Origin: Limnochorda sp. L945t
GTDB taxonomy: Bacteria > Bacillota > Limnochordia > Limnochordales > Geochordaceae
NCBI RefSeq assembly: GCF_035593305.1
Contig: NZ_CP141615.1
Coordinates: 2,387,722-2,451,721, forward strand
DNA length: 64,000 nucleotides
Reading direction: 5' to 3'
Position numbers and translations under genes: made by a program. Positions 19,742-37,387 of this stretch are shown one piece after another. The notes below the pieces were generated by a model. It did not search any database. It saw only the letters and a list, made by a program, of their open reading frames with translations, and was not told where the DNA came from. Positions within the stretch are counted from its first letter, which is position 1; each line of letters opens with the position of its first letter.

Positions 19742-19742
19742 A

Positions 19743-19760
19743 CGCCGGAGGCCTCCGGCG
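19743..19760. repeat. Perfect 18-base palindrome after GT2 gene
   Basis: CGCCGGAGGCCTCCGGCG directly follows the TGA at 19739-19741 and can fold into a 7-base stem with a GGCC loop. There is no T-run. It may be a pause or partial terminator between the GT2 gene and rfbF. Confidence 0.4.
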
Positions 19761-19835
19761 TCGTGCGCGGGCCACGCAAATGCCCCGCCCGTCCCATGGC
19801 GGAGAGCGTCGCCGGCCCATAGTCTGGATTCCACC

Positions 19836-20600: not shown

Positions 20601-21601
20601 GCGTCCCGGCCGGCCCACCGTGGGCCGGCCGGCCCGTCATGGTGACGGGCGCTTCGGGGTTCGTCGGCGGGTGGCTCGCAAAGGCGCTGGCGGAGCGCGG
20701 CGCACCGGTGGTCGCACTCGTGCGCGACGAGACGCGGCTGCTCCGGTACTGGCGCGGCGTCTGGCCCGACCTCGTGAGCGAGGCCAGGGCGGACGTCACC
20801 GACCTGGCGGCCGTGGAACGGGTGCTGGCCGAGTACGCGGTGGAAGTCGTCTTCCATCTGGCCGCCCAGTCCCAGGTCACCGTGGGCCGGTCGGGCCCCG
20901 TGGCCACGCTCGAGACCAACGTCCGGGGTACCTGGATCGTGCTGGAGGCCGCCCGCCGCACCCCCACGGTCAAGGGCGTGGTGGTCGCCTCTTCCGACAA
21001 GGCGTACGGCGACTCCAGCGGTCTCCCGTACCGGGAGGAGGCCCCGATGGCCGGCCGCTACCCCTACGACGTCTCCAAGAGCTGCGCGGACCTCGTGGCC
21101 CGCAGCTACTTCCACACTTTCGGCCTGCCCGTCTACGTCGCCCGCTGCGCCAACATCTTCGGCGGAGCCGACCTCAACTTGGGCCGGCTGGTGCCCCACG
21201 TCGCCGTCTCGGCCCTGCAGGGCATCCCGCCGCGCCTGCGGGGCACCGGCGAGGAGAAGCGAGACTGGCTGTACGTGGAAGATGCTTGCAGCGCTTACCT
21301 CGCCCTCGGAGAACGCGCGCTCGACGGGAAGCTCGCGGGTGAGGCGTTCAACTTCGGCAGCGGGCGGCCGTACCGGGTGCTGGACGTGGTCCACGCCATC
21401 CTGGAGCTGGCAGGGCGGCCCGATCTCAGGCCGCACGTCCTGGGCCAGGCCAGGGCCGAGATCCGGGAGCAGTGGCTCGATCCGAGCAAAGCCCAGAAGC
21501 TGCTCGGCTGGTCGGCGCGGTGGGAGCTGCGAGCGGCCCTGGAGGCCACTATGGGCTGGTATCGCCGCTGGCTCGAGTCGGGCCGCTCGCCGGCTGCATG
21601 A
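20579..21601 (+). CDS. rfbG: CDP-glucose 4,6-dehydratase
   Basis: A 340-residue extended short-chain dehydrogenase that converts CDP-glucose to CDP-4-keto-6-deoxyglucose. The NAD-binding motif is MVTGASGFVGGWL, the catalytic set is SSDKAYG with YPYDVSKSCAD (the Tyr-x-x-x-Lys pair), and the N-terminal FHLAAQSQV and C-terminal NFGSGRPYRVLDVV are typical of RfbG. GTG 20579, inside rfbF, has GGAGG 11 bases upstream. RfbH or another downstream CDP-sugar enzyme is not in the window, so the final sugar is unknown. Its last 53 bases overlap the convergent CgeB-like gene. Confidence 0.92.
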   Translation: MESLDGLSVPAGPPWAGRPVMVTGASGFVGGWLAKALAERGAPVVALVRDETRLLRYWRGVWPDLVSEARADVTDLAAVERVLAEYAVEVVFHLAAQSQVTVGRSGPVATLETNVRGTWIVLEAARRTPTVKGVVVASSDKAYGDSSGLPYREEAPMAGRYPYDVSKSCADLVARSYFHTFGLPVYVARCANIFGGADLNLGRLVPHVAVSALQGIPPRLRGTGEEKRDWLYVEDACSAYLALGERALDGKLAGEAFNFGSGRPYRVLDVVHAILELAGRPDLRPHVLGQARAEIREQWLDPSKAQKLLGWSARWELRAALEATMGWYRRWLESGRSPAA

Positions 21602-22571
21602 GCGAGCGCACGATCACCGCCAGGCGGTGGCGGAACGTATGCTCCCAGAGCGTCCTGCGGCGGGCAGCCTCGGCGATCCTCCGGCGCTCGTCGGGGTGGG
21701 CGAGGTAATACTCGATCTTCTCGGCCAGGTCTCGGGCGTCGTGGAACAGCACGACCTCCTCGCCCTCCCGGTAGAGCCGCCGGATGTCCGGCCGGGAATC
21801 GTCCACCAGCTGGAACGCTCCGCACGCCGCGATGTCGAACAGCCGGTTGTTGGGGCTCCTGGCCGGCACCCGGCGGCTGTTGCGGTTGTTGGGCATGGTC
21901 TCCGGCATGGGGTCCCGGTGGATGTTGAGGTTGATGGCTGCTCCGCAGAAGTAGCGCGCCACTTCCCCTGCGTCGTAGACCCCGGGGCGTACGAAGCGCT
22001 TGAGCCGCGGGGCCAGGGCGTCGCCCCAGCCGGTCCAGTCGCCGATCAGTTTGACGTGGAGCCGCTCGAGCGCCGGAGCTATGGCGTTGAGCAGCGCCAT
22101 GCGGTTGGGGAATCCCTGCCCCACCAGGCAGACGTCGCTCCTGTAGTCGGTCGAGACCGAGGACGGGCGGTAGACGCGCGGGTTGGTGCACCAGGGCAGG
22201 TAGGTCACGTTGCGGACGGCCTCCCGGTAGACCTCCACCGACGCGCTGTCGTTGGTGAAGACGTGATCCCACGGCTCGAGCCACCGCGGCGTGTGGAGAT
22301 CGATCTCGTAGGGAGCCTCCGTGATCCAGACGGCGGTCCGTATACCGCGCCGCTTCGCCCGCCAGACCAGATCCGGGTCGACGGAGCCGCCGTGCAGGGC
22401 GAGCATGAACGCCCACCGGCCCGACTCGACCAGCTCCGCGGTCAGCTGGGAGGGGAGCACCTGCGTCACACGGGCGGCGAAGCCGGCTTCCAGGGCCTCG
22501 CGGATGTGGGAGGCGAGCCCCGGGAAGCCGAACGCCGGCACGTGCGCCACCAGCAGGAACTCCGGGGTCAT
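21549..22571 (-). CDS. CgeB-like glycosyltransferase (second of three)
   Basis: A 340-residue CgeB/DUF3880-type GT-B transferase. Seen: VWITEAPYEIDLHTP, HVFTNDSASVEVYRE, LPWCTNPRVYRP and a C-terminal half with SPNNRLFDIAACGAFQLVDD, YREGEEVVLF and YYLAHPDERR. It is clearly paralogous to the gene at 24037-25122, with near-identical core motifs, and more distant from that at 10763. It starts at ATG 22571 in an ATGA overlap with the GT2 gene upstream on the minus strand. It likely modifies the spore surface glycan; donor unknown. Confidence 0.82.
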   Translation of the reverse strand: MTPEFLLVAHVPAFGFPGLASHIREALEAGFAARVTQVLPSQLTAELVESGRWAFMLALHGGSVDPDLVWRAKRRGIRTAVWITEAPYEIDLHTPRWLEPWDHVFTNDSASVEVYREAVRNVTYLPWCTNPRVYRPSSVSTDYRSDVCLVGQGFPNRMALLNAIAPALERLHVKLIGDWTGWGDALAPRLKRFVRPGVYDAGEVARYFCGAAINLNIHRDPMPETMPNNRNSRRVPARSPNNRLFDIAACGAFQLVDDSRPDIRRLYREGEEVVLFHDARDLAEKIEYYLAHPDERRRIAEAARRRTLWEHTFRHRLAVIVRSLMQPASGPTRASGDTSP

Positions 22572-23395
22572 GGCCGGGCCGGCCGGTGAACGATGCGGCG
22601 GTATCGCGGCCGGTCCAGTTCCACCTCGTCTTCGAACAGGCGCGGCCAGCCGATCTGGCCGACGAGCGTTGCCCAGCGCTCGGTGAAGCGTTGCCACGAG
22701 AGCTGTTCCCATTCGGAGGCCAGAGCGCCCGCCTGCCGGGTCGAGGTGCCCTTGCGGTGTTCCACGAAGACGTCCTCGGCCACCAGGAGGTCGAAGCCGG
22801 CCAGCCTCGCCCGCAGGCTCCAGTCGAAGTCGTCCGCCCCCAGGAGCATGCTCGCGTCGAGGCCTCCCACCGCCGAGCGCGCCGCCGGCGTGATCAACAG
22901 GCAGCACCCGATGAGGAACTTGACCGTGCGAAAATGCCCCCGGCAGGCCCGGTAAAGCCGCTCGACAAACTGGTCGAGCTCCTGGGTGCCCTGCGGGGAG
23001 GCAAAGGGCGCGGCCCCGTAGAGGCCGTACTCCTGGGGGCCCCCGATGAGGGAGCCAAGGGGGCCGACCGCCCCCACCTGCTCCGTATCGGCCATGTGGG
23101 CCGCCAGCCGCACGTCCCAGTGCGGGCCCACCAGCACGTCCGGGTTGAGCAGGATCGCCGGCGCGTCCGCCGGCACCCGCGCGAGCGCCTGGTTGGCGCC
23201 CTCCGAGTAGCCCAGGTTGGTGGCATTGACGATGAGCTCGATGCGGTGCGCGGCCGAGGCCCGGATCCGCTCGAGGTGCCGGCCGGTGCCGTCGGTCGAG
23301 CCGTTGTCCACCACGACCATGGCGGTGTCCGGAGCGCAGTGGCGGTCGAGCCGTTCGAGCACCGCGGGGAGCGTGGCCATGCTGTTGTACGTCAC
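22568..23395 (-). CDS. GT2 family glycosyltransferase
   Basis: A GT2 transferase of at least 275 residues: VTYNSMATLPAVL, VVVDNGSTDGTGRHL, NLGYSEGANQAL, LLNPDVLVGPHW (a D-x-D-like metal site reading NPD), and GADDFDWSLRARLAGFDL. GTG 23395 is the first conventional start, but the in-frame codons before it encode Ile-Tyr-Val-Cys-Leu, which complete the first beta strand. A CTG at 23425 preceded by GAGGG is a possible true start. It sits 31 bases after the methyltransferase gene and is coupled to the CgeB-like gene downstream by a 4-base overlap. Confidence 0.82.
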   Translation of the reverse strand: MTYNSMATLPAVLERLDRHCAPDTAMVVVDNGSTDGTGRHLERIRASAAHRIELIVNATNLGYSEGANQALARVPADAPAILLNPDVLVGPHWDVRLAAHMADTEQVGAVGPLGSLIGGPQEYGLYGAAPFASPQGTQELDQFVERLYRACRGHFRTVKFLIGCCLLITPAARSAVGGLDASMLLGADDFDWSLRARLAGFDLLVAEDVFVEHRKGTSTRQAGALASEWEQLSWQRFTERWATLVGQIGWPRLFEDEVELDRPRYRRIVHRPARP

Positions 23396-23426
23396 CAGGC
23401 AGACGTAGATGCCGGACCGGCTCAGC

Positions 23427-24098
23427 TCAGCTTCCCTCCCCGTCCGCCACGGGGTAAGCCACCACGTAGTAGACCCAGTGGGTGGCCTCGTCCCTCACCC
23501 GATCCGCGTCGAACCCCGCCGAGCGCAGCCCTTCCAGGATCACGGCGGGGACCTCCCCGCAGATCGGGCTTACCATCGGAGCCATCTGCTGGATGCGATA
23601 CCCGCTCGATTCGAACAGCCGCACGATCCCGCGCCGGGTGAAGAAACGCAGGTGCGTGGCGTCCAGCAGCCCCTGCGGCTGGTAGACCCAGTCGCCCTCG
23701 AGCAACCCCTTGAGGACGCACCAGTGAGCGACGTTGGGTACGCTCGCCACGACGTACCCCCCATGGGCCAGGCAACGGCGCAGCGCCCGCAGCACCCGCC
23801 AGGGGTCCCGCAAGTGCTCCAGGACGTCTGCCGCCAGGATGCAATCGTAGGCGCGGGCCGGCAGGGCGTCCACCAGCTGCTCGATGTCGCCGGCGATCAC
23901 CTCGTCGATGCGCCGGCGGGCCTCCTCGGCCGCCTCCCGGTTGATCTCCACGCCCGTGACCCGGCACGGCCGGGACCGTTTCAATGCTTCTCCGACCAGC
24001 CCCGGGCCGCACCCCAGGTCCAGGATGGTACGGCAGCTATCGCGGACCAGCCCTCGCACGTCCGGCCGGTCCGTGTAGTAGCTCCAGTCGATCGGCAT
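23427..24098 (-). CDS. Class I SAM-dependent methyltransferase
   Basis: A 223-residue Methyltransf_11/23-type enzyme. The SAM-binding motif I is ILDLGCGPGLVGEAL, the acidic residue ending strand two is in VTGVEINREAAE, and the post-motif DCILAADVLEHLRDPW is typical of sugar or lipid O-methyltransferases. In this setting it probably methylates a sugar of the surface glycan; that is inference from neighbours. The start is ATG 24098 behind GGGAGGGGGCGGAG. It begins inside the 3-prime end of the upstream CgeB-like gene (62-base overlap). Confidence 0.85.
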   Translation of the reverse strand: MPIDWSYYTDRPDVRGLVRDSCRTILDLGCGPGLVGEALKRSRPCRVTGVEINREAAEEARRRIDEVIAGDIEQLVDALPARAYDCILAADVLEHLRDPWRVLRALRRCLAHGGYVVASVPNVAHWCVLKGLLEGDWVYQPQGLLDATHLRFFTRRGIVRLFESSGYRIQQMAPMVSPICGEVPAVILEGLRSAGFDADRVRDEATHWVYYVVAYPVADGEGS

Positions 24099-25122
24099 GC
24101 TCCGCCCCCTCCCTTCCCCGCGCCCCGAGGGAGGCGACGATGTGCAGCATCCGGCGGATGCGGTGGTCGTACGTGTGCTCGGCGAGGACGCGCCGGCGGG
24201 CGCGCTGGGCCATGGCGCGGCGCAGTTGGGGGCGGCCCAGGTAATGGCGGAGCTTGGCAGCGAGATCCTCGGGGCCACGGAAGACCTCAATCTCTTCCCC
24301 CGGGCGGAAGTAGCGTGGAAGGTCGGCCCGGGTATCGTCCACGAGCTGGAAGGCGCCGCACGCCGCCACGTCGAAGGTGCGGTTGTTGGGGGAGACCGCC
24401 CCCACGTGGGAGGCGTTGAGGTTCTCGGGCAGGTCGTGAGGGCCGGGCAGGCGGTGCACGTTGAGGGTAATGGCTGCCCTCGAGTAGAGGCGAGCTTCCG
24501 CCTCGGGCCGGCCCGTGGGCGGCCGCACGAACCTTCGAAGGCGCGGATCCAGCGCCACGTCCCACCGGTCCCACGGGCCCACGAGCTCTACCCGTAAAGT
24601 CGCGAGCAGGTCCGCCATGGCGTTGAGCAGCCGTACCCGGTGCGGAAAGCCGCTTCCCACGAAGACCACGTCCAGCTCCTCGGGAGGGCCGACCCGCTCG
24701 GGGCGGTAGGTCTGTGGGTCGGTGCACCACGGCAGGTGAACGCCCCGGCCCGGCCCGTAGCGATCGACCGCCATTCTCTCGTTGGTGAAGACCACGTCGA
24801 ACGCACCGGCCCACGCTTCGGGGCGGCGGTCGATGGTGTACGGGTCCTCCGTCACCCACGCCGCCACGACCCGCCCCAGCCGGCGCAGGGAACGGGCCGT
24901 GGCAGCGTCGAGCCGTTCGCCGCCCAGCACCAGCACCAGATCCCAGGGAGCCGGCGCGTCCCACCCATCTCGAGCCGCAAGGCCGTCGAGCAGGATCGCC
25001 GTCGAGGCGCGGGCAGTCATCACGCCCGCCCGGCGCAGTGCCGCCAGCACGGCCCGCTCGAACCCGGCAAACCAGCCGCCGAATCCCGTTCCGATGACGA
25101 GCGCGCGGGGAATGGTTGTCAC
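24037..25122 (-). CDS. CgeB-like glycosyltransferase (third of three)
   Basis: A 361-residue CgeB/DUF3880-type transferase: ALVIGTGFGGWFAGFE, AAWVTEDPYTIDRR, VVFTNERMAVDRYG, LPWCTDPQTYRP, then SPNNRTFDVAACGAFQLVDD and FRPGEEIEVF. It is a paralogue of the gene at 21549-22571. Start GTG 25122 is set by where similarity begins; no strong ribosome-binding site is seen, and the frame stays open to 25293, so the N-terminus is uncertain. Its last 62 bases overlap the methyltransferase gene. It heads a four-gene minus-strand operon. Confidence 0.8.
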   Translation of the reverse strand: MTTIPRALVIGTGFGGWFAGFERAVLAALRRAGVMTARASTAILLDGLAARDGWDAPAPWDLVLVLGGERLDAATARSLRRLGRVVAAWVTEDPYTIDRRPEAWAGAFDVVFTNERMAVDRYGPGRGVHLPWCTDPQTYRPERVGPPEELDVVFVGSGFPHRVRLLNAMADLLATLRVELVGPWDRWDVALDPRLRRFVRPPTGRPEAEARLYSRAAITLNVHRLPGPHDLPENLNASHVGAVSPNNRTFDVAACGAFQLVDDTRADLPRYFRPGEEIEVFRGPEDLAAKLRHYLGRPQLRRAMAQRARRRVLAEHTYDHRIRRMLHIVASLGARGREGAEHADRLELLHGPAGRARAGPR

Positions 25123-25325
25123 CCCGTGCAGGATACGGGGAAGCCGCCAGAGGGGTGCCAGCACCGGAGGGCTGCTCCACGGGAGGCCGGCCGGCGGGTG
25201 CACTGCCAGCGATCTACCCCTGCCGTAGCGCTGGAGGACCGGGATAATCGAACGAGGAACGGGACGTTTCCAATCCGATACCACCCGGCCCACGGGAGGG
25301 GCAACGGAAAGGGGCCCTTCCCGTC

Positions 25326-26057
25326 ATGCGCATGCGCCTTCCCGTGGCGCTCGGCCGGCCGCCGGGCGTCCTCTTGCTGGCAGCCGCCGTATGCCTCGTG
25401 CTCACGGCTCCGGCGCTCGCCGCTACGTGGTCGTCCTCGGGTTCCGGCACGTGGCGTTCCGCGCCCGTGACCTCCTGGCAGCCGTGGAGCTCGTGGTCGT
25501 CGAGCCCTTCCGGCACCTACACGTGGCGGCCCGGCACCGGCTCCGGCTGGTGGACGAGCCGTCCCGGCACCGCCAATCCGGGGACCTGGTATCCCGCTCC
25601 GCAGCCCCCTTCGACCCAGCCGCAGCCCCCTCAGCCGCAACCGCCCCGGCCTCCTGAGTCGTCTCCGGTCGTCGACCCGGCATCGGAAGAGACCCTCGCG
25701 AGCCTGGTCAACCAGGCCCGGGCTGCGAGCGGCCTGGCCCCACTGTCGGTGGATCCCACCCTGCGGGAGCTGGCACGGCGCAAGAGCCTCGACATGATCC
25801 AGCGCAACTACTTCGGCCACGATTCCCCCACCTGGGGCGGGCTCGCGCAGCTGCTCGCCATGGGTAACGTCCACTACATTTACGCAGGCGAGAACCTGGC
25901 CGGAGCGCCCAGCGCCCAGTCGGCTCACCAGAGCCTCATGAACAGCCCCGCCCACCGGGCCAACATCCTCAACGTCCACTACACCCACATGGGCATCGGG
26001 GTCGTCCGTGGAGGCCCGTACGGGCTGATGGTGACCGAACTGTTCGTCGGTCGCTGA
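25326..26057 (+). CDS. Secreted CAP/SCP-domain protein (YkwD-like)
   Basis: A 243-residue exported protein. A signal peptide (residues 1-33, with the hydrophobic core VLLLAAAVCLVLTAPALA) precedes a Ser/Trp/Thr/Pro/Gln-rich low-complexity stretch (34-115) and a C-terminal CAP domain (118-243). CAP hallmarks are LVNQARAASGLAPLSVDPTLRELA, the His in YFGHDSP, the Glu in YAGENLAG, and the HRANILN motif. Similar proteins in Bacilli are associated with spores or the cell envelope; no enzymatic role is established for the family. GAAAGGGG precedes the start. It is divergent from the CgeB-like operon. Confidence 0.88.
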   Translation: MRMRLPVALGRPPGVLLLAAAVCLVLTAPALAATWSSSGSGTWRSAPVTSWQPWSSWSSSPSGTYTWRPGTGSGWWTSRPGTANPGTWYPAPQPPSTQPQPPQPQPPRPPESSPVVDPASEETLASLVNQARAASGLAPLSVDPTLRELARRKSLDMIQRNYFGHDSPTWGGLAQLLAMGNVHYIYAGENLAGAPSAQSAHQSLMNSPAHRANILNVHYTHMGIGVVRGGPYGLMVTELFVGR

Positions 26058-26157
26058 ACATGCGCCGGCCGAAGGAACGATCGAGAAGCCGGCCGCTGCC
26101 CGGTGGAGGAGTCGGTCGGCGCCGGGGAGAACCAACGCCACCGGGGCGGATGACATC

Positions 26158-27057
26158 ATGAAAAGGATGCAGGCCCCGGTCGCCACCTTCTCCATCGTGG
26201 CCGCGGATCCCGGGACGGGCAGCCTGGGGGTCGCGGTGGCCTCCAAGTTCCTGGCCGTGGGGGCCGTGGTGCCATGGGCCAAAGCGGGGGTAGGGGCCAT
26301 CGCCACCCAGGCGTGGGCCAATACCAGCTACGGCCCGGCGGGGCTCGAGCTCCTCGCCGCGGGTCACGACGTGGCCTCGGTCGCCCGGCAGTTGACGGCG
26401 AGCGACGAGGGCCGCGAGCACCGGCAGTTCGGGATCGTGGACGCCCAGGGCCACGCTTTCGCGTACACGGGAGCGCAGTGCCTGGAGTGGGCAGGCGACG
26501 TGACGGGCCCCTACTTCTCCTGCCAGGGTAATATCCTGGCCGGGCCGCAGGTGGTCGAGGCCATGGCCGAGGCGTTCCAGTCGTCGGGTGGCCGGGACCT
26601 GGCCGCCCGGCTGGTGGCGGCGCTATCGGCAGGGCAGCGGGCCGGGGGCGACCGGCGGGGCCGCCAGTCGGCCGCCATCCTCGTGGTGCGGGAGAAGGGC
26701 GGGTACGGCGGCTACACCGACCGGTACATGGACCTCCGGGTCGACGACCACCCGGATCCGGTCGCGGAGCTCGAGCGGCTCGTCCGCCTTTTCCGTCTCT
26801 ACTTCGAGAAGGAAGAGAGGCCGCAGCACGTCGCGCTGGAGGGGGCCGTGCTCCTGGAGGCGCAGCAGGCCCTGGTGCGACTCGGGTGGCTCGGCCAGGC
26901 CACCGGTCGGCTCGACGACGCCACCCGGGAGGCGCTGCGGCAGTTCCACGCGGTGGAAAACTTCGAGGAGCGCGAGGCGCCGCCAGGGCTCATCGACCGG
27001 GTGGTATTGGAGTTCTTGAAGGAGAAGGCCGCAACGGCTCGCACCGGGCAAGCCTGA
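26158..27057 (+). CDS. DUF1028 protein with C-terminal peptidoglycan-binding-like domain
   Basis: A 299-residue protein. Residues 8-215 match DUF1028, an Ntn-hydrolase-like family: ATFSIVAADPGTGSLGVAVASKF, VGAVVPWAKAGVGAIATQA, GYTDRYMDLRVDDHPDPV. Residues about 225-299 resemble the putative peptidoglycan-binding domain often fused to DUF1028 (LLEAQQALVRLGWL, DDATREALRQFHAVENFEER). The conserved Thr near residue 10 is the residue expected as the Ntn nucleophile if the protein is processed, which is not shown. No signal peptide is seen. The biological role is unknown. Confidence 0.85.
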   Translation: MKRMQAPVATFSIVAADPGTGSLGVAVASKFLAVGAVVPWAKAGVGAIATQAWANTSYGPAGLELLAAGHDVASVARQLTASDEGREHRQFGIVDAQGHAFAYTGAQCLEWAGDVTGPYFSCQGNILAGPQVVEAMAEAFQSSGGRDLAARLVAALSAGQRAGGDRRGRQSAAILVVREKGGYGGYTDRYMDLRVDDHPDPVAELERLVRLFRLYFEKEERPQHVALEGAVLLEAQQALVRLGWLGQATGRLDDATREALRQFHAVENFEEREAPPGLIDRVVLEFLKEKAATARTGQA

Positions 27058-27081
27058 AGCCCCGATGCTCCGCAGGCGGTC

Positions 27082-29586
27082 TCAGCTCGCTTGCACGGCC
27101 TGCGCCGGGAAGGCAGGATCTCCTTCACCGGGCTGGCCTGCGTGCAGCAGCAGTACCTGCACGCAAGCCCCGGCCGGAGACGAGAGCATGGCAAGTTGAC
27201 CCGCTTGCTCGACGGCCACGCGGTGGACCTCTTCGGGAGTGCTTTCGGGCTCGACCAGGACCAGGGGCAGCCACGTGGCGCCTCTCGGGGCGAGACGCAC
27301 GGCCACCAGGCCCACCGCCAACGCCGCCGCCAGGCGGCGGCACGAAGCAGTGTCGCGCCAGGCAGGAGGGAAACGCTCCTCGATGCGGCGGATCTCGTCC
27401 GCCACCATCGACCGGACGCTCCGGCTCAGCCCGCCGGCCGCCCTCTGGAGCCAGTCGACCGCCAGGCGGTGAGCCTCGGTTTCCCGGCGAAGCCCTGCGA
27501 GGCGGTCTCGCAAGAAGGCGGCCTCTTCCATGGCCCCGGCCACGCTCCAGACGGGTGACCCGGGCTCGCGCAGCGCGGTTGCCTGTTGGAGAGCCTGGCG
27601 GCGCAGCCGCCAGCGGCGGGCCGACCGCCGTGCCGCATCCCAAAAGCGCGGCCCGGCGGTCTCGAGCCAGCGGGCCAGGCTGGCCGGATCCTGGGCCTGC
27701 TGCACGGACAGGGGTACCGGGCTCAGAGGAGCTGCGGCGAGCACCCACTCCACGAGTTCGTCGGCGACCACGAGCCGGCGTCGCTGCTCCTCCAGCACGG
27801 GCTCGAGGCGCTGGAGCCGGTCGCGGCAGGCGCGCCAGCGGCGGTAAGCTCTGGGCACCTCCTCGTCGTCCATCGACTCCAGCACCGGCGCCAGCCGGCC
27901 GCGAAGCACCGCGAGCTCCTCGTCCACGGCCTGCAGTTCCTGCCGGAGAGCGTCCAGATGGCCGGCGGTGATCCCCTCCGACTCCAGCGCGGCGCGCTCG
28001 CCCTCCAGGCGCTCGAAGGTGGCCAGACCGGCGCGAGCCTCGTCGTAGAGCGTCGAAAGGGCTTGCTCGTCGAGGGCCGGGAGAAGGGTCCGGGCGGCAT
28101 CCTCCAGCTCCTGGATTTCCTGCCGCAGGGATCGGGCATGTACGCGATCCCTGCGAAGCCTGCGCTGCAAGGCCCGTCGCTTCGTCCAGGCCACTCCCGC
28201 CAGAGCGAGAGGCGCGACCGGCGCGAGGAGCGCCGGAGGGCCCGTCCAACCCGCCGGCCCCAACCCGGCCAGGGTCGCGGCCCCCGCCAGAGCCAGCCCG
28301 CCCGAAAAGGAGAGCAGCCCGGCCCAGGCGGTCGAGATCCACCGTATCCGGCGCACCAGGCGGGCGCACGACAGCTCCTGCTCGGCCAGCTCCCGCACGA
28401 GGCCCGAGCGGCGTCGTGCCCGTTGCAGGTGCTCGGCCAGCCGGCCTGCGACCTGCCCCAGATCCATCAGGCGCCACGCGCGCTGCAGCTCCAGCACCTG
28501 CCGGTACCGCTCCTGTGCCTGCCGGAGCTGCTCGACGTACCGGGCCATCCGCAACTCAGCCGGTTGCCGGCGGGCCAGCAGCGCCTCGCGGCGGCGCAAC
28601 AGGCGCTCGCGAAGTTCGCCCCACTGCGCTGCCAGGTGCTGTTCCGAGAGGCCCAGGGCTTCGAAGGCGGCGAACCGGCCGGTCAGGGTCTCGGCCAGCC
28701 GGCGGACAGCCGCTTCGAGCGCGGCCAGTCGCCGGTAGCCCTCCATGAGGCGCCGGCTTTCTTGCAGGAGGCGTTCCACCGCCGCTTCGGGATCGGCTTT
28801 CCAGGGAGACCAGTCCACCTCGGGCAGAGGGGGCGTCGCTGCCTCGTCGGCCGCCAGCTGTTCCCGCAGGGCGGCCTCGACGGACTCTTGCTCCCGGACG
28901 AGCCGCAGCCGCTCTTCGATCGCGGCAAGCCGCCGCGACAGCTGGTACTGCCGGGTCTCCAGCTCTTTCAACCGATCCGAGAGGCGCGCAGCCGCCTCCA
29001 GAAGCCCGTGCCGCCCGGCCCACTCCTGCAGAGCGCGCAGGACGGAGGCCGGGGGGCGAACGTCGCCGCCTTCCCGGGAGGAAAGGGTGGCCATCAAGCG
29101 CCACCACGCTTCGGGCACGCGTACCCCGAGATAGCGCTCCGCGAGCTGCGCCGGCCGCGAGCTCCCTGCCCGCCTGCCTGTGCCCTCGTGACCGGCAAAC
29201 ACCCACTCCCAGCCGTCATCGCCCATGCGGGGGCGCGCACGGGGCGGCCACGGCGGGAAATCGAGCCATTGCACCGGAGGATCGGGGACCCGGGGCCGCC
29301 GCCGGAGGGCCACCGTCCCGCGGGAGAGCTCCCGGTACACCTGGTAGCACCACGAGCCGCTCTCGACAAGCAACAGCGCGGCCGGGGCCGGCCCTCCGCT
29401 CAGGAGCCGTCGTGCACCGGGAACGGGCACCGGGCCGGCCAGGGCCGACGCCACCCCTTCGGCGATGGCGTGGGCTGTCCGGGCCGACCCGCACGCCACC
29501 ACGTTGAGGCCCGCTTCGAGAGCCAGGCGTACGTCGTCCAGCGGACCGAAGCCGCGCAGCCGGAGCGCGCGCACGCAGAAGGTCAT
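27082..29586 (-). CDS. YhaN/SbcC-like coiled-coil protein with degenerate ATPase motifs
   Basis: An 834-residue protein with the architecture of YhaN: an N-terminal ATPase-like head (LRLRGFGPLDDVRL...GLNVV), long coiled coils, two central hydrophobic segments (about residues 416-467) and a C-terminal head. Partner position supports this, since an SbcD/YhaO-like phosphoesterase lies directly upstream with an ATGA overlap. The Walker A loop expected after GLNVV reads ACGSARTAHA (31-40), without GKS/T. The expected Walker B near residue 772 reads LPLVLVEPE, with Val in place of the Mg-binding Asp. No LSGG-like signature is visible. It is probably a non-ATPase or very divergent member. Confidence 0.78.
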   Translation of the reverse strand: MTFCVRALRLRGFGPLDDVRLALEAGLNVVACGSARTAHAIAEGVASALAGPVPVPGARRLLSGGPAPAALLLVESGSWCYQVYRELSRGTVALRRRPRVPDPPVQWLDFPPWPPRARPRMGDDGWEWVFAGHEGTGRRAGSSRPAQLAERYLGVRVPEAWWRLMATLSSREGGDVRPPASVLRALQEWAGRHGLLEAAARLSDRLKELETRQYQLSRRLAAIEERLRLVREQESVEAALREQLAADEAATPPLPEVDWSPWKADPEAAVERLLQESRRLMEGYRRLAALEAAVRRLAETLTGRFAAFEALGLSEQHLAAQWGELRERLLRRREALLARRQPAELRMARYVEQLRQAQERYRQVLELQRAWRLMDLGQVAGRLAEHLQRARRRSGLVRELAEQELSCARLVRRIRWISTAWAGLLSFSGGLALAGAATLAGLGPAGWTGPPALLAPVAPLALAGVAWTKRRALQRRLRRDRVHARSLRQEIQELEDAARTLLPALDEQALSTLYDEARAGLATFERLEGERAALESEGITAGHLDALRQELQAVDEELAVLRGRLAPVLESMDDEEVPRAYRRWRACRDRLQRLEPVLEEQRRRLVVADELVEWVLAAAPLSPVPLSVQQAQDPASLARWLETAGPRFWDAARRSARRWRLRRQALQQATALREPGSPVWSVAGAMEEAAFLRDRLAGLRRETEAHRLAVDWLQRAAGGLSRSVRSMVADEIRRIEERFPPAWRDTASCRRLAAALAVGLVAVRLAPRGATWLPLVLVEPESTPEEVHRVAVEQAGQLAMLSSPAGACVQVLLLHAGQPGEGDPAFPAQAVQAS

Positions 29587-30761
29587 GGGAGCGCGTCTTC
29601 CAGTGCGCCTGCGGCCAGGCGCCAGGCGTCCTGTAGGACGGGGAGGCGATCGGCCGACCCCTTCTCTCGCCACGTCTCCAGAGCGGACGCCGCCAGCCGT
29701 CCCAAGGCGTCCTCCCGGGAGGCGAGCGACGCGAGCCGGCGCTCGTCGACCGGGCAGGTACGATCCTCGATCTCGAGGTAAAAGCAGGCGGGAGCCAGGA
29801 GGGCCTTCAGTTCGCCGGCGTCCAGCGCGGCGCCCACCTCTCCGTCCCCCGTCAGCACGAGGCGCAACACCGGGCGCACGGCTCCGAGCCGGGCCTGCAG
29901 GTGGCTTGCGATGGTTCGTGCAGACGAAAGACCCTGCACCCCTGCCCGGATCGAGACGGAGAGGAGCGGGCGCACGGGGACCGCTTCGCGGCGAAGCCGC
30001 GGGGGCTCGCCCTCCTGCAGGTCGACGACGACGTAGTGCCCGGTGCCGGGATCGTCGAAGGACCGGCCGTCGACCGGGCCCGGGTAGACGGCGAGCGTGC
30101 GCCCGAGGGAGATGGTGAGGTACCGGTGTACGCAGCCCAGGGCCACGTAATCGTAGCCTGCGCCGGCCAGCGCGGCCCCGTCGATCCAGAGAGCGCGGTC
30201 TGAGGCCGGCCCTGCCTCGGGCATGCCCGCCGAAAGGCCGGTGAGCCGTGCGTGGAAGAGCCCCACGTGGATCCCTTCTCTGGCCGAGCGGGGCGGAAGT
30301 TGGGTAATCGGCCGGGATGCGGGCCGCCAGCCTCCCGTGAACGCGGCGCCGTACAGGTACACCTTCTCGCCGCCGACCAGCAGCGGGCCGAAGGCCGAAG
30401 GGTCCGGCTCACGGATCAGGAGCCCGGGCCACTCGCAGCCGTAGCGTCGATAGACGCTCGAGGGGTCGGTCCACTCGTCGTGGCCCCCGGAAACGGTCAC
30501 CACCGCGAGCCCGGCGTCGACGAGGCGACGCAAAGCCGCCATCGTGCGCCACGCCAGGGCCGGCTCGGGATCGGGGCGGTCGAACAGGTCTCCCGCCACC
30601 ACTACGAGGTCCGGACGGCGGGGCTGCTGCAAGGCCCAGCCGACCGCGTGCTCGAGCCTCCGGTCGCGCTCCTCCCGCCAGGCCCCCGCCAGGGAAGCCG
30701 GCAGGAAAGGCGCCGCGTAGCCGAGATGGAGGTCCGCCAGATGCAGCATCCGCACGGGCAT
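29583..30761 (-). CDS. YhaO/SbcD-like metallophosphoesterase with altered metal motifs
   Basis: A 392-residue calcineurin-fold phosphoesterase resembling YhaO and SbcD/Mre11. It keeps ADLHLG (Asp10, His12), AGDLFDRP (57-63) and a His at 170 in GLFHARL. The GNHD motif reads GGHD (92-95), and the usual GHxH motif reads GCVH (209-212), so one metal-binding Asn and one His are missing. In the family, such pairs process DNA ends or branched structures with an ATPase partner. Start ATG 30761 gives the normal length. It is transcribed divergently from the secreted protein at 30897. Confidence 0.82.
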   Translation of the reverse strand: MPVRMLHLADLHLGYAAPFLPASLAGAWREERDRRLEHAVGWALQQPRRPDLVVVAGDLFDRPDPEPALAWRTMAALRRLVDAGLAVVTVSGGHDEWTDPSSVYRRYGCEWPGLLIREPDPSAFGPLLVGGEKVYLYGAAFTGGWRPASRPITQLPPRSAREGIHVGLFHARLTGLSAGMPEAGPASDRALWIDGAALAGAGYDYVALGCVHRYLTISLGRTLAVYPGPVDGRSFDDPGTGHYVVVDLQEGEPPRLRREAVPVRPLLSVSIRAGVQGLSSARTIASHLQARLGAVRPVLRLVLTGDGEVGAALDAGELKALLAPACFYLEIEDRTCPVDERRLASLASREDALGRLAASALETWREKGSADRLPVLQDAWRLAAGALEDALP

Positions 30762-30842
30762 GGCGCTCCACGCCCTTCTCCGGGCGCTTTGCCGGGCAGC
30801 AGCGTAATTGCGCGCGACGGCGACGATTCCTCCCGGACGCTG

Positions 30843-30848
30843 TATAAT
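30843..30848 (+). promoter_or_regulatory. Consensus -10 element upstream of secreted protein gene
   Basis: A perfect TATAAT lies 48 bases before the ATG at 30897. No good -35 hexamer is found 16-18 bases upstream, so it may need an activator or an unusual -35. Confidence 0.45.
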
Positions 30849-30896
30849 GCGGCAGCAAACCACACGGCGGGTAGACCATTCGGGGGCTCGGGACCC

Positions 30897-31586
30897 ATGC
30901 CAGGCGCCGGCGGACGGCGGCAAGGCGCGAAGGGGATGGCCGCGAGATTGCTCGTGCTCGCGCTCACGGGCACGACATGGCTGCTTGCCGTTCCCGGTGC
31001 TCGTGCGGCCGCGGCCTCAGCAGACGACAATGCCCTGGCCGGGCGCCCGGCCGAACCGCCACCCTCCCTGGAAGCCATCATGGACCAGGTGCGCCGGACC
31101 ACCCGCCTCATCGACGCACCTAGCCGCGTCCGCCAGCTGTACCGGGCCCAAGCCTTCGGCCGGACATGGGATTTCGAGGCCTTCGTCACCAAGGAATCCG
31201 ACCGCGTGGTCGTGCAGAGCGAGGATGCTCCCTGGTTCTTGCCGCGCCGCCTCCAGCTGGACGTCGTCCAGGTCGTGGACCTCCTCGACGGGTATCACTT
31301 GCGGCTGGTCCCCGAGCAACCGGTATCCGGCAGTGCGGACCGGTGGGTCATCGAGGGGGTGCCCGCAGCAGGCCGCTCCGGGGCACGGTACGTGCGCTTC
31401 TGGGTCGAACGGGCGACCGGCCTGGTCACCCACCTGGACCTCGCCTACTGGTGGGGCCGACTCATCATCGACCAGGGGTACCAGCGAGTCGGAGCGTACA
31501 CGGTGCTCGATTGGCAGAACGTACGGATCGAGCCGCTGCATGTGCAGGTGTACGTGCGCTACCGGGAGTACCGGTTCGGCTCTTGA
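30897..31586 (+). CDS. Secreted protein, possibly LolA-like fold
   Basis: A 229-residue protein with a signal peptide (core LLVLALTGTTWLLAVPGARA, about residues 18-38) and a mature region rich in beta strands. SLEAIMDQVRRTTRL, FVTKESDRVVVQ, VVDLLDGYHLRLVPE and the closing RVGAYTVLDWQNVRI stretch recall outer-membrane-lipoprotein-sorting (LolA-like) folds, which Gram-positive bacteria use in sigma-regulatory and lipid-binding proteins. I would not assign a function. ATG 30897 has GGGGG ten bases upstream; ATG 30936 (MAARLL) would give a shorter, equally plausible signal peptide. Confidence 0.6.
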   Translation: MPGAGGRRQGAKGMAARLLVLALTGTTWLLAVPGARAAAASADDNALAGRPAEPPPSLEAIMDQVRRTTRLIDAPSRVRQLYRAQAFGRTWDFEAFVTKESDRVVVQSEDAPWFLPRRLQLDVVQVVDLLDGYHLRLVPEQPVSGSADRWVIEGVPAAGRSGARYVRFWVERATGLVTHLDLAYWWGRLIIDQGYQRVGAYTVLDWQNVRIEPLHVQVYVRYREYRFGS

Positions 31587-31637
31587 GGCGGGCGATGGCG
31601 ACGCTCTCCTGCAGGGTGGGGTGGCAACCTCGTTGAA

Positions 31638-31677
31638 ACCCCTTTCGTGGGAGCGGGCCGGCAGGCCGGAAAGGGGT
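31638..31677 (+). promoter_or_regulatory. Leader hairpin masking the ribosome-binding site of the PFK-like gene
   Basis: ACCCCTTTC (31638-31646) is perfectly complementary to GAAAGGGGT (31669-31677). Inside the 22-base loop a second GGCC/GGCC pair (31656-31659, 31664-31667) can form. The 3-prime arm contains the purine-rich ribosome-binding site of the gene starting at 31686, so folding would hide it. Confidence 0.45.
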
Positions 31678-31685
31678 CTATCGGG

Positions 31686-32669
31686 ATGAGCAGGCGGATC
31701 GGTGTCATCGTCGGCGGAGGCGAGTCGAGCGGAGTTCACCCGTTCCTCTGGGGGCTCGCTCTCCACCTGCGTGGCTTGGGGGACGAACTCTGGGGAGTCG
31801 ACGGGGGCTGGGAGGGCCTGGCGGAGGGCGCGCTGCGTCCCCTGTCCGAGGAAGAGATGGCTCCCCGCCTTTTCCAGGGAGGCTCCATGCTCCGTTCCGG
31901 CCGCGCCGCGCCGGTCCCGGAGGCGGTGCTCGACCAGGGTCTGCGTCGCCTCGACGAAGCGCGCATCGACGCGCTCGTGGTCGCGGGAGACCATGCCAGC
32001 ATGGCGGCGGCCTCCAGGATGGCCCGCATGGGGATCCGCGTAGTCGGCGTGCCCCAGACCATCGCCAACGACGTGCCGGGCTCCGAGTCCTCGATCGGCT
32101 ACCCCAGCGCCGTCCAGCGTGGCGTGGAGGTCGCCGGGCCCCTGGCGCTCGAGGCGTGGAGCGAGGGCCGCACCGTCGTCATCGGCACGCCGGCGGTGTC
32201 GACCGGATGGCTACCCTTGGCCATCGCGCTGGACACCTTTGCCGATGCCGTCGTCATCCCCGAGGCGCCCGTCGACCTCGACGTCCTGGCCGCCGCCATG
32301 AAGAGGCGCGCCCCGTCCAGCAGGCGGGGCGTGACGGTGGTGGCAGCGGAAGGGGCGGTGCCCGGTGGGGTGCGGAGGCTGGCCCGAGGTCTCGAGGAGC
32401 GCCTCGGGCGGGAAACCGCCGTCCACGTCCTGGACGATGCCCTGACGCAAGCGGCCCCCTCGGAGCGCGAGTTAATGCACGCGCATCTCATGGCCAGGCG
32501 TACCGCCGAGGTCATCGGGGCCGGACGGTGCGGTGTCGTGGTAGGCTTGCTGGGAGGCCGGCTCGTGGAGGTTCCCCTGGAGCGGGCAGCCCGGGCGCCG
32601 CGGTCCGTCACGCCGGAGTGGCTCCAATTCGCCACACAGAGCGGGCTCGTCCTTCCACAGGCAGCCTGA
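31686..32669 (+). CDS. Phosphofructokinase-family protein with altered active site
   Basis: A 327-residue member of the ATP/PPi-dependent 6-phosphofructokinase fold. Recognisable blocks are IGVIVGGGESSGVHPF (canonical GGDAPGMN), VVAGDHAS (canonical GGDGS), PQTIANDV (canonical PKTIDND), SIGYPSAV, and VIPEAP. The catalytic Asp of TIDND is Ala, the GGDGS Mg/ATP loop has lost its pattern, and the MGR sugar-phosphate motif reads IGTPAVSTGW. The protein probably lacks phosphofructokinase activity or acts on another ligand. The normal pfkA is not in the window. AAAGGGG precedes ATG 31686 and sits in a leader hairpin. Confidence 0.78.
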   Translation: MSRRIGVIVGGGESSGVHPFLWGLALHLRGLGDELWGVDGGWEGLAEGALRPLSEEEMAPRLFQGGSMLRSGRAAPVPEAVLDQGLRRLDEARIDALVVAGDHASMAAASRMARMGIRVVGVPQTIANDVPGSESSIGYPSAVQRGVEVAGPLALEAWSEGRTVVIGTPAVSTGWLPLAIALDTFADAVVIPEAPVDLDVLAAAMKRRAPSSRRGVTVVAAEGAVPGGVRRLARGLEERLGRETAVHVLDDALTQAAPSERELMHAHLMARRTAEVIGAGRCGVVVGLLGGRLVEVPLERAARAPRSVTPEWLQFATQSGLVLPQAA

Positions 32670-32729
32670 GCGCGCCCCGCAGGAATGGCCGGTCACCGTG
32701 CGAAGTAGCTCCGGCAGGGAGATGCCGTC

Positions 32730-33587
32730 GTGCCGTCGCAGCAATCTGTCTCGGGGCCCGTGGAGGCCATCATCTTCGACATCGGAGACACGCTGTTGGG
32801 GTTTCCCGTGGCGTCCTGGGACGAGGTGGACCGTGCGAGCATCGACGCCCTGCGATCGGCCATGGAGCAGAGCCCTCAGCGCGCCGGGGCGATCGGAGCC
32901 GCGCGGGACGGCCTACCCCCGGATGAAACGCTGCTCGCCCTCTATCGCGAAGTCGTGGAGGCGCTCAACCGGGCAGCCCTGCCGGAGCTCAAGGAGGTGC
33001 CGGCTCGCCGCGTTCTGGAGCAGATGCTGCGCCGCCTCGGGATCACGGCGGGCGACGCCGAGCTCGATCGCCTGGAGCGGGCATGGGCCGCTCCACGGCT
33101 GACCATCCGGCGGCTCTACCCGGAGGTGCCCCGGGTGCTCGCCGGGCTGCGTCGGCACGGGGTCCGCCTCGGCGTCATCTCCAACATCTGGCTGAGCGGC
33201 GGCATCGTCCGCGAGCACCTGGATTCCTTGGGGCTGATGGAGCCTTTCGAGGCGGTGGTGCTCTCTTCGGAGGTCGGCTACGTCAAGCCCCATCCCGTGC
33301 TTTTCTCCATGGCGCTGGAGCAGATGGGCGTGAAGCCGGCTGCCAGCTGGTACGTGGGGGACAACCCCCACGCAGACGTGGCCGGGGCCAAAGCGGTCGG
33401 TATGCGCGCGGCCCTGGTAAAGCGACCGCCGCAACTCCGTTTCCACCCGTCGCCCCCGCCCGACGACCGTCCCTACACCGGGCCTTCGCCGGACCTGGTT
33501 CTTTCGGATCTCACCGGGCTGCTCTCGCTCGTCGAGGGAAGCCGGCCCCTTTCCGAGCGGGCGCCGGGCGTACCGCACGCCGGCTGA
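32730..33587 (+). CDS. HAD superfamily hydrolase
   Basis: A 285-residue haloacid dehalogenase-like phosphatase. Motif I is FDIGDTLLG with the nucleophile Asp, motif II is GVISNIW, motif III is the Lys in EVGYVKPHP, and motif IV is YVGDNPHADVAGAKAVGM. The long helical insert between motifs I and II is a C1-type cap. The family dephosphorylates small metabolites; the substrate is not predictable. Start GTG 32730 has GGGAG eight bases upstream. It follows the PFK-like gene by 60 bases and may share its transcript. Confidence 0.88.
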   Translation: MPSQQSVSGPVEAIIFDIGDTLLGFPVASWDEVDRASIDALRSAMEQSPQRAGAIGAARDGLPPDETLLALYREVVEALNRAALPELKEVPARRVLEQMLRRLGITAGDAELDRLERAWAAPRLTIRRLYPEVPRVLAGLRRHGVRLGVISNIWLSGGIVREHLDSLGLMEPFEAVVLSSEVGYVKPHPVLFSMALEQMGVKPAASWYVGDNPHADVAGAKAVGMRAALVKRPPQLRFHPSPPPDDRPYTGPSPDLVLSDLTGLLSLVEGSRPLSERAPGVPHAG

Positions 33588-33588
33588 C

Positions 33589-33620
33589 GCCGCGGTCCGT
33601 TGACCCCCGGAGACCGCGGC
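33589..33620. terminator. Hairpin after HAD gene, overlapping the kinase promoter
   Basis: GCCGCGGTC (33589-33597) and GACCGCGGC (33612-33620) form a perfect 9-base stem directly after the TGA at 33585-33587. The TTGACC of the next promoter lies in the loop. There is no T-run, so this may end transcription weakly or act as an operator. Confidence 0.4.
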
Positions 33621-33629
33621 CGGTTAAAT
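33600..33629 (+). promoter_or_regulatory. Predicted promoter of the two-component operon
   Basis: TTGACC (33600-33605), an 18-base spacer and TTAAAT (33624-33629) lie about 70 bases before the kinase start. Confidence 0.5.
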
Positions 33630-33700
33630 GAAGATGGGGCCGCGGGCTTCGCGAGTAACGCGGCCCGGTCGTCCAGCAGACCGCGGGGAGCATCGGTCGG

Positions 33701-35656
33701 TTGGCAAGAGCGGGGGCGACGCTCACCGCAAGCGAAGTGGCGTCCAGGCAGGGCCAGCGGGCGCATCGGGCGGAACCGGTGGTGGACCGGCTCCAGCGAC
33801 AGCTTCGCGACTTCTTCTGGGCGCTTCCCCTGGTCGTGACGGGCCTGGCGGCGCTGCACCAGGCGTGGCTGTACGCGGTGCTGCGGAGCCTCGCACCCCG
33901 CTGGCACCCCTGGGCCCAGCTCGCCATCTATGGTCTCACCGGAGTGGTGGTCGCCTGGGTCGGGATGCGTTGGCTGGTCGACGCCGTGGAGCGGCGCGAC
34001 CGGGCAGAGGCTGAGCTGCGCCGGGCGTACGCCGATCTGCAGGTGACACACAGGCAGCTGCTGGCCTTGCACGAGCTCGGCAAGCGCACCGCGTCGGCGG
34101 TCGACGTCCAGGAAGTCCTGACCCTGGCGGCTCGCGTGCCGGTAGAAACCCTGGATGCCAGGGGAACGGCCGTCGTCTACTTCGACCCGGCCCAGTCCCG
34201 AGCCAACCTGGAAGTCACATGGAACTTGAGCGACGCCGCTTCGGCCCGCCTGCGCCGGGTCGTCGACGCCGGGCTCGCGTCGGAGGCCTGCCGGCAGTGC
34301 CAGGCGCTCACCGCCAACATCAACGACCGCTGCCCGTTGCTCGATCCCTTGCGCCCTATCGCGGCAGAGGAAGACATCGGGGGGGTCATCTGCCTGCCCC
34401 TGAGCGTCGGCCAGGATCGGGTCGGGGTGCTGGCGACTTATCTCCGGGCAGGGGAGGCGCCGGACGTCGACAGGGTCCGGATGCTCAACATCCTGGCCAC
34501 CGAACTGGCTCCGGCGCTGGAGGGGGCGCGCCTGCGGTCGCGCCTGGTCGCCTCGGTCAACTCGGCGCGCCAGACCGCCGATACGCCCCAGGACCTCTAC
34601 GGCGTGTTGGATCGCGCCCTGAGCATCATGATGGAGGGGTGGAATGCGGACGCCGGCGCCATCCTCTTGAGCGCCGGAGAGCCGCCGGCGTGGGACGCGC
34701 GCACCCAGCGCAACTTCGGGGAACTGGGTGGTGAGCGCTTCGCCCTGGCTTTGCGCTTGGCCGGACTCGCCCGGGAGCGCCGGGCTCCCGTGGTCATCCC
34801 CCGCATGCGGGCACCGCATGGACTGCGCTCCATCGCCGCCATTCCCCTGGAGGCCGAGGGCCAGGTGCTCGGAGTCGCCGTGATGGCCTCCGAGGTGGAT
34901 GGGCAGTTCGCGCTCCACCAGACCGACGTGCTGGAGGCGCTGGGCGCCAACCTGGCGCTCGTCATCCGCAACGCCCAGCTCTACCACCGGTTGAGGGAGA
35001 TGGCGGTGCTCGAGGAGCGGTATCGGATTTCCCGGGAAATCCACGACGGGCTCGCCCAGACGTTGGGCTACCTCGGGCTCCAGGTGGACCGGGTCCGAAG
35101 CTTGCTCCAGAGGGGCCAGTACCACGACGCCGCCCAGGAGGTGGGCGCACTCCACGAGGTGATCCGTGAGGCGTACCTGGACGTGAGGGAGACGATCGAT
35201 CACCTCCGGGTCAGCGCCGAGGGAGAAGGAGGCATCGTGGGAGCTCTCGAGCGCCTGGCCCGGGACTTCACCCAACGCTCCGGCATCACGGTGCGGACCC
35301 GGCTGGAGGCCAAAGACGCCTCCCTTGCTCCCGAGGTCGAGCTGCACCTGCTGCGGATCGCCCAGGAGGCCCTCACCAACGTCCGCAAGCACTCAGGGGC
35401 ACGGCACGTCGAGATGGGCCTCACCCGCGACGAGCGCTTTGTCGAGCTCAGCATCGCCGACGCAGGCCGCGGCTTCGACCCGGCGGCCCTGCCTCCTTCT
35501 CACCATCACGGCCTTGCTTCCATGCGAGAGCGCGCGGCCATCTGCGGCGGGCAGCTCAGCATCGTGACCGGACCCGGCAAGGGGACGCGCGTCGTCGTCC
35601 GCATGCCGACGATGGGAGGCCACAGCGATGGCAGTACGCGTGCTCGTCGCGGATGA
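33701..35656 (+). CDS. NarL-type sensor histidine kinase with two GAF domains
   Basis: A 651-residue membrane sensor. Two membrane helices (about 38-60 and 69-92) are followed by a short coiled coil, GAF domain one (about 125-265, with a CRQCQALTANINDRC cluster of Cys residues) and GAF domain two (about 285-440). A HisKA_3 dimerisation helix with the phospho-acceptor His in SREIHDGLAQTLGYL and an HATPase_c domain (EALTNVRKHSGARHVE, then DAGRGFD and HHGLASMRERA) complete it. The three cysteines of the first GAF (C-x2-C-x8-C) could bind haem or an iron-sulfur cluster. TTG 33701 has GGGGAG ten bases upstream. It overlaps its response regulator by 29 bases. Confidence 0.9.
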   Translation: MARAGATLTASEVASRQGQRAHRAEPVVDRLQRQLRDFFWALPLVVTGLAALHQAWLYAVLRSLAPRWHPWAQLAIYGLTGVVVAWVGMRWLVDAVERRDRAEAELRRAYADLQVTHRQLLALHELGKRTASAVDVQEVLTLAARVPVETLDARGTAVVYFDPAQSRANLEVTWNLSDAASARLRRVVDAGLASEACRQCQALTANINDRCPLLDPLRPIAAEEDIGGVICLPLSVGQDRVGVLATYLRAGEAPDVDRVRMLNILATELAPALEGARLRSRLVASVNSARQTADTPQDLYGVLDRALSIMMEGWNADAGAILLSAGEPPAWDARTQRNFGELGGERFALALRLAGLARERRAPVVIPRMRAPHGLRSIAAIPLEAEGQVLGVAVMASEVDGQFALHQTDVLEALGANLALVIRNAQLYHRLREMAVLEERYRISREIHDGLAQTLGYLGLQVDRVRSLLQRGQYHDAAQEVGALHEVIREAYLDVRETIDHLRVSAEGEGGIVGALERLARDFTQRSGITVRTRLEAKDASLAPEVELHLLRIAQEALTNVRKHSGARHVEMGLTRDERFVELSIADAGRGFDPAALPPSHHHGLASMRERAAICGGQLSIVTGPGKGTRVVVRMPTMGGHSDGSTRARRG

Positions 35657-36296
35657 CCATGCCCTTTTCCGCGAGGGCCTGCGCCGCATCCTGGCGAGCT
35701 ACCCCGATATCGAGGTCGTAGCCACCGCCGCCAACGGCCGCGAGGCGGTGGAGATGGCCGGCCGCTTGCGCCCGGACGTCGTGTTGATGGACGTCCGCAT
35801 GCCAGAGATGGGGGGGGTCCAGGCCACCGCCTCGATCCGGACGGCGCTCCCGGACAGCCAGGTGATCGTCCTCACCGTCTCCGACCAGGACGAGGACCTG
35901 TTCGGCGCCATCCGTGCGGGGGCTCGAGGGTATCTGCTGAAGAACGTGGGGGAAGAGGAACTGGTCGAGGCGATCCGCCGTGTGAGCCAGGGAGAGGCGA
36001 TGCTCTCCCCCTCCCTGGCGGTCCGCCTCCTGGACGAGATGGCAGGGCGCAGGGAATCCGGCCCTGAAGACGCGCAAGGGCTCACGCAGCGGGAGTCCGA
36101 GATCCTCGCCCTGGCCAGTCAAGGGCTCACCAACCGGGAGATCGCGGATCGCCTCCACCTTTCCATCCACACCGTGAAGACCCACGTCCGTCACATTCTG
36201 GACAAGCTCCACGTGCGCAACCGCGCCCAGGCCGCCGCCCTGGCATCCGGTGGAGCGCCGCCTCCGCGTCCCGACAGGCGTAATCCATCCGGGTGA
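35628..36296 (+). CDS. NarL/FixJ-type response regulator
   Basis: A 222-residue regulator with an N-terminal receiver domain (VLVADDHALFREG acid pair, the phospho-Asp in VVLMDVRMPEMGG, and the Lys in GYLLKN) and a C-terminal LuxR-type helix-turn-helix (LTQRESEILALASQGLTNREIA and the HTVKTHVRHILDKL recognition helix). It is partnered with the overlapping kinase. Its position just before the cytochrome oxidase genes suggests it may control respiration in response to oxygen or redox state, which is inference. Confidence 0.93.
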   Translation: MAVRVLVADDHALFREGLRRILASYPDIEVVATAANGREAVEMAGRLRPDVVLMDVRMPEMGGVQATASIRTALPDSQVIVLTVSDQDEDLFGAIRAGARGYLLKNVGEEELVEAIRRVSQGEAMLSPSLAVRLLDEMAGRRESGPEDAQGLTQRESEILALASQGLTNREIADRLHLSIHTVKTHVRHILDKLHVRNRAQAAALASGGAPPPRPDRRNPSG

Positions 36297-36460
36297 TGCC
36301 GGCCCGCTCGCCCGCTCTCTTGACGCTCGCCCCTCCGTATGAGTCTGGCAGATGGCCAAATGGCCCGAACGCGTGATGGCGCCTCGGGTCGATGCGCTGC
36401 TTTAATCGGTAGTAGACAATGGGAGCGATTACGAGCAGCGTCGCCGGGCGAGGACGACAC

Positions 36461-37117: not shown

Positions 37118-37177
37118 TGGCGGGGCGCACGCCCGGTGAGCCCCGGCGTGCGACAACTGAAGGGGGGCGAACGCACG

Positions 37178-37378: not shown

Positions 37379-37387
37379 AAGCAGGCC

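Follow-up and report, generated by a model that had tools for sequence, protein, structure and literature searches.

A YhaN/YhaO-like gene pair with degenerate active-site motifs in both subunits is retained under purifying selection in Carboxydochorda

Gene content of the locus

Carboxydochorda is a heat-loving bacterium of the deep subsurface. We analyzed a stretch of 64,000 nucleotides (the window; G000:C1:2387722-2451721) from a 3.31 Mb Carboxydochorda genome that is a single contig. The window carries a yhaO-like phosphoesterase gene directly followed by a yhaN-like gene, and we refer to this pair as copy B (Table 1). An intact pair, copy A, is present in the same genome at G000:C1:589.7-594.2k. 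The first-pass annotation had reported the yhaN open reading frame and quoted two peptides from it, and both the frame and the peptides proved exact. A scan for sigma-70 promoters and terminators gave no match.

The MAG Limnochordaceae bacterium Bu05 and Carboxydochorda subterranea L945T are members of one species (PMC11456536). It is an independent assembly from another sample; its contig is 97.9% identical to the window and has the same losses in YhaN-B and YhaO-B that we describe below. Comparison of 18.5 kb around the pair (window 19086-37566) with L049 showed that the two assemblies are collinear, with only four indels, and that yhaN ranks among the most densely substituted genes of this segment.

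Table 1. Features of copy B and its neighbors (window coordinates)
Feature	Position	Strand	Remarks
yhaN-like gene, copy B	27082..29586	-	ATG at 29586; 834 aa; degenerate ATPase head, central coiled coil and membrane hairpin
yhaO-like (SbcD/Mre11-like) phosphoesterase gene, copy B	29583..30761	-	392 aa; stop overlaps yhaN ATG (ATGA)
Walker A position, yhaN-B	29467..29496	-	residues 31-40, ACGSARTAHA; relatives APNExGKS/T
Walker B position, yhaN-B	27244..27270	-	residues 773-781, LPLVLVEPE; relatives LPFIFDDPF; positional alignment only
Central membrane hairpin, yhaN-B	28177..28341	-	residues 416-470, between two coiled-coil arms; from hydropathy and alignment
yhaN-B stretch without amino-acid change against Bu05	28150..28464	-	residues 375-479; 7 synonymous changes
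YhaO-B motif III	30477..30488	-	GGHD; GNHD in 37/37 relatives; metal-ligand Asn lost
YhaO-B motif V	30126..30137	-	GCVH; His at the Cys position in 37/37 relatives; metal-ligand His lost
DUF1028-like flanking gene (family by eye)	26158..27057	+	76% identical to neighbor of intact orthologous pair; synteny marker
pfk-like, HAD-like and histidine kinase genes (names by eye)	31647..35656	+	order as beside the orthologous pair in G002

YhaN-B lacks the nucleotide-site motifs of its relatives

The first-pass annotation had noted that YhaN-B lacks Walker A and Walker B residues. We aligned the protein with 11 intact relatives, and each of these has an intact P-loop at the site of ACGSARTA in the window: RPNEWGKS in the syntenic orthologue and APNExGKS in the others. 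The columns for the LSQGAQDQ signature and for LPFIFDDPF are likewise lost, the D-loop column is also changed, and a BLAST alignment places Ser at the probable Q-loop Gln. The absence of the Walker B Asp was borne out as a lost alignment column. YhaN-B was not matched by a profile built on intact C-terminal heads, so the Walker B assignment itself is positional only. The switch position is occupied by His in the window protein and by Arg in that of Bu05. None of the motifs expected of a YhaN-like or AAA_27 SMC-like ATPase (Walker A GxxxxGKS/T, the LSxGxxDQ signature and the Walker B acidic pair) is present.

Other parts of the protein are recognizable. The N-terminal head profile matches residues 5-51 only, and the full YhaN family profile matches residues 196-719, including the central coil and membrane part, with an E-value of about 1e-18 (also given as 6e-20). 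Hydropathy analysis of YhaN-B shows one peak at residues 422-442 and a second, weaker stretch at about 452-467. The first-pass annotation had noted coiled coils and two central membrane segments; the membrane segments are weak in the window protein, but a central hydrophobic hairpin is a feature of the family. YhaN-B is about 410 aa shorter than its 1244-aa orthologue, and the alignment places most of the missing part in coiled-coil sequence. We dropped the idea that its two arms were shortened symmetrically, since they lack about 184 and 224 aa when measured on the orthologue but 70 and 190 on copy A. Synteny, the family profile and hydropathy support YhaN descent and a coiled-coil/membrane core, and at this level YhaN-B is a shortened orthologue of a YhaN/Rad50-like protein.

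Searches against wider collections separated YhaN-B from its intact relatives. The orthologue and copy A pass the cut-offs of both Pfam AAA_23 and AAA_27, and YhaN-B matches neither. By sequence, the orthologue matches the Rad50 structures 3aux and 5f3w, whereas a PDB sequence search with YhaN-B returned chance matches only, mostly to coiled coils, with no significant match to Rad50. PADLOC assigned the pair to no defence system; its one hit, a weak one, was between YhaN and LeoBC across the coiled coil. For YhaN-B and YhaO-B we built AlphaFold models from a two-sequence alignment, but their mean pLDDT was about 40 and they were not used. The loss of ATPase function in YhaN-B is well supported as a prediction, since none of the nucleotide-site motifs survives and an independently assembled genome has the same loss.

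An intact orthologue and the turnover of yhaO-yhaN copies

The draft genome G002, from the same family as the window genome, contains a locus that we assign, from gene order and sequence, as orthologous to copy B. This locus spans two contigs with a break inside yhaO, and its order is DUF1028-like, yhaN, yhaO, LolA-like, pfk-like, HAD-like and histidine kinase; flanking genes are 49-76% identical between the window and G002. The G002 yhaN-B codes for 1244 aa with intact RPNEWGKST, LSQGARDQ and LPFIMDDPF, and the available part of its yhaO-B contains GNHD and GHIH. Nine further yhaO-yhaN pairs from the phylum are also intact. The first-pass annotation had raised the question of whether relatives have the loss seen in YhaN-B: the 11 aligned relatives, including the syntenic orthologue, are intact, and Bu05, of the same species, has it. 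The annotation had also considered that intact close relatives might expose a local frameshift. The intact orthologue exists, in another genus, but the window contains no frameshift, and the YhaN-B head has been remodelled through substitution and in-frame deletion.

In a YhaO tree, YhaO-B of the window species groups with the G002 orthologue with support of 99/99. Its branch is 1.83 changes per site long, about 5.5 times the 0.33 of the orthologue, and the sequences indicate that change was rapid once the two had separated and that ordinary constraint has applied since.

The family differs in which copies it holds. The window species has an intact A, a B without catalytic motifs and a small third fragment. 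G002 has an intact B and a broken yhaO of type A, and no A-type yhaN was found in this 800-contig draft. G001, a second genome of the family, has an intact A, no B and one fragment. From these states, copies of yhaO-yhaN seem to come and go, with different lineages retaining different copies. The third copy in the window genome (G000:C1:1570581-1570870, minus strand; L036:6582-6871) is decayed, with the first ~75 aa of yhaO and a 22-aa piece of yhaN in another frame; motif I of its yhaO has already changed from DLH to ALH. We considered this site (G000:C1:1570.6k) as a true SbcD and rejected it as a decayed fragment of the YhaO family. The broken type-A yhaO of G002 (L040:2069-2851; G002:C132) has an internal deletion and a frameshift, and the G001 fragment (L038:6260-6676) covers ~50 aa of a type-A yhaO. 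Broken type-A copies suggest repeated duplication and loss of the pair in the family.

No SbcD above the TIGR00619 cut-off was found in the window genome, where YhaO copies A and B were the sole matches. Copy A thus seems to be the only complete complex of the YhaO-YhaN kind predicted in this genome.

Selection on copy B

We estimated dN/dS for copy B from one genome pair, the window and Bu05, with 74 changed codons in yhaN. These comprise 38 nonsynonymous and 36 synonymous changes and no stop (omega about 0.40). The nonsynonymous share of 51% compares with 71% expected under the local mutation spectrum, and none of 2000 neutral simulations gave a share as low. The other two frames of yhaN-B gave omega values of 1.1 and 3.0. 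yhaO-B has 8 nonsynonymous and 10 synonymous changes (omega 0.30, P=0.01 by neutral simulation). In the same genome comparison, the intact pair A gives 16/21 for yhaN and 10/11 for yhaO (omega 0.29 and 0.34). Because these values are comparable, copy B appears to be under about as much constraint as the working copy A. In Bu05 the copy A yhaN (L086, G453:C7:189645-192917) has a one-base insertion and a one-base deletion ~610 codons apart, which are likely errors of the MAG assembly.

Constraint is uneven along yhaN-B. Residues 375-479, around the membrane hairpin, have 0 nonsynonymous against 7 synonymous changes (P=0.005; the limits of this stretch were set in part with the data in view). A run-length test found the longest change-free stretch at residues 531-669 (P 0.03; P 0.002 for the two longest together). 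The heads have 18 nonsynonymous against 9 synonymous changes, with an omega of about 0.75 that is close to neutral.

The chief rival to a retained function is slow decay: copy B would be a redundant paralogue under relaxed selection, because copy A covers its function, and its frames would simply not be broken yet. We regard this as possible and give it about one chance in three. The intact copy A, the near-neutral YhaN-B heads, the long YhaO-B branch and the true remnants elsewhere in the family (the third copy, the broken copy A of G002 and the G001 fragment) all fit such decay. The omega of pair B, however, is similar to the value for intact pair A, and a value of 1 is excluded. YhaO-B has also taken ~1.8 amino-acid changes per site without a stop or frameshift, and many would be expected at ~2% stops per neutral change. 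GC3 at copy B (0.84-0.86) is normal for the region. With frames open in two genomes and dN/dS of 0.40 and 0.30 near those of the intact second pair, copy B is, by these estimates, not a neutral pseudogene.

YhaO-B has lost two metal ligands

The YhaO-B protein has a calcineurin-like phosphoesterase domain (PF00149, E 2.7e-8, above the cut-off) and matches the Mre11/SbcD structures 2q8u and 1ii7 by sequence. It scores 43.9 bits against SbcD TIGR00619, where copy A YhaO scores 55.3 and the curated NCBIfam cut-off is 77.65. Two of the seven metal ligands expected of a YhaO/SbcD/Mre11-like nuclease are changed, N93G (GNHD to GGHD) and H210C (GHIH to GCVH), and five, including His94, are kept. All seven are kept in each of 37 distinct YhaO relatives, drawn from our first set and a phylum-wide sample. 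In this comparison YhaO-B differs from the relatives at 14 of the 64 near-invariant sites. An intact Walker A lies directly downstream of yhaO in 35 of the 37; the exceptions are G002, where the contig breaks and yhaN is intact on another contig, and G082, which lacks such a motif there. Asn93 and His210 correspond to Asn84 and His206 of Pyrococcus Mre11, both ligands of the second metal; the four first-metal ligands are all kept. Alignment to the Thermotoga enzyme places the changes at the same positions. YhaO-B is probably dead or altered too.

A changed activity would mean that YhaO-B uses a single metal or takes Cys210 as a ligand and that YhaN-B acts as an ATP-independent clamp. The five remaining ligands, with all four of the first metal among them, would allow this, but both altered positions are invariant in the 37 relatives and joint loss in the two subunits points to lost catalysis rather than tuning. 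We consider it improbable. An assembly error, misjudged frame or chimera has next to no chance of explaining the loss and found no support: Bu05, from another sample, carries the same sequence (95% protein identity, a single in-frame 6-base indel), and the annotated yhaN frame is the one under selection.

Discussion

Copy B shares with the YhaN/YhaO-like pairs of Bacillota, copy A included, its gene order, adjoining genes and the start of the N-terminal lobe. It also has in common with such pairs the coiled coils with a central hydrophobic hairpin, and phosphoesterase motifs I, II and parts of III-V. In contrast to these pairs, the window YhaN is without Walker A, the probable Q-loop Gln, the signature, the Walker B Asp, the D-loop and a recognizable C-terminal head, and its YhaO is without two metal ligands. 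Relative to Mre11-Rad50 and SbcD-SbcC, a membrane hairpin, as judged from hydropathy, would replace the zinc hook, and both active sites of the window pair are degenerate. A search of open-access papers gave nothing useful on YhaN/YhaO function.

We favor, at a probability of roughly 0.55, the reading that copy B is a paralogous Mre11-Rad50-like pair turned double pseudoenzyme, a non-catalytic membrane-tethered complex with the dead phosphoesterase as a binding module. Somewhat more tentatively, ATPase and nuclease may have been lost together and the complex co-opted, either as a scaffold anchored in the membrane or to regulate the intact copy A. We infer loss of activity, complex formation and a scaffold or regulatory role for copy B; for the putative YhaN-YhaO complex, gene overlap and co-conservation of yhaN and yhaO were observed. 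The first-pass annotation had proposed a scaffold that lost ATPase function. The ATPase loss stands, with the motifs gone here and in Bu05, and a retained structural role is supported by purifying selection, which is strongest around the hairpin; a scaffold as such would be a proposed role.

From motifs and hydropathy, the intact pair would be a membrane-tethered Mre11-Rad50-like nuclease in which ATP joins the heads, the phosphoesterase sits at the heads and the coil ends in a membrane hairpin. In the Carboxydochorda lineage, the YhaN-B head has lost its nucleotide site and YhaO-B two ligands of one metal site, and copy A would keep the enzymatic work in the same genome. Copy B would then have no ATP cycle by any known route, and its nuclease site is incomplete. 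Constraint remains on the body of YhaO and, most strongly, on the membrane hairpin and central coil. For this reason copy B most likely serves as a static platform for binding, held at the membrane, or modifies the action of copy A.

Partial parallels exist. The B-subunits of eukaryotic replicative DNA polymerases use a calcineurin-like phosphoesterase fold as a non-catalytic scaffold. VPS29 of retromer has a metallophosphatase fold that serves as a rigid scaffold without activity (PMC3101248). These belong to unrelated complexes, whereas the inactivated subunit of the window adjoins an equally inactivated ATPase. In Lamassu, LmuB is Rad50-like, and its Walker B motif is naturally altered in a way proposed to reduce ATP hydrolysis (PMC10586767). 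LmuB is a distant model match to intact relatives of YhaN-B, and YhaN-B itself has no LmuB match; only the Walker B glutamate is changed in LmuB, but YhaN-B is left without any of the motifs.

Single metallophosphatases and single ATPases are already known to have given rise to pseudoenzymes. If our reading is true, copy B would be a two-gene nuclease machine without both activities and with both genes under selection, in effect a separation-of-function mutant made by nature. Such a pair would reveal which part of YhaN-YhaO (membrane hairpin, coil or phosphoesterase surface) acts apart from DNA cutting and ATP hydrolysis. Such a role is hard to probe in catalytic versions, and the intact copy in the same genome would provide a built-in comparison.
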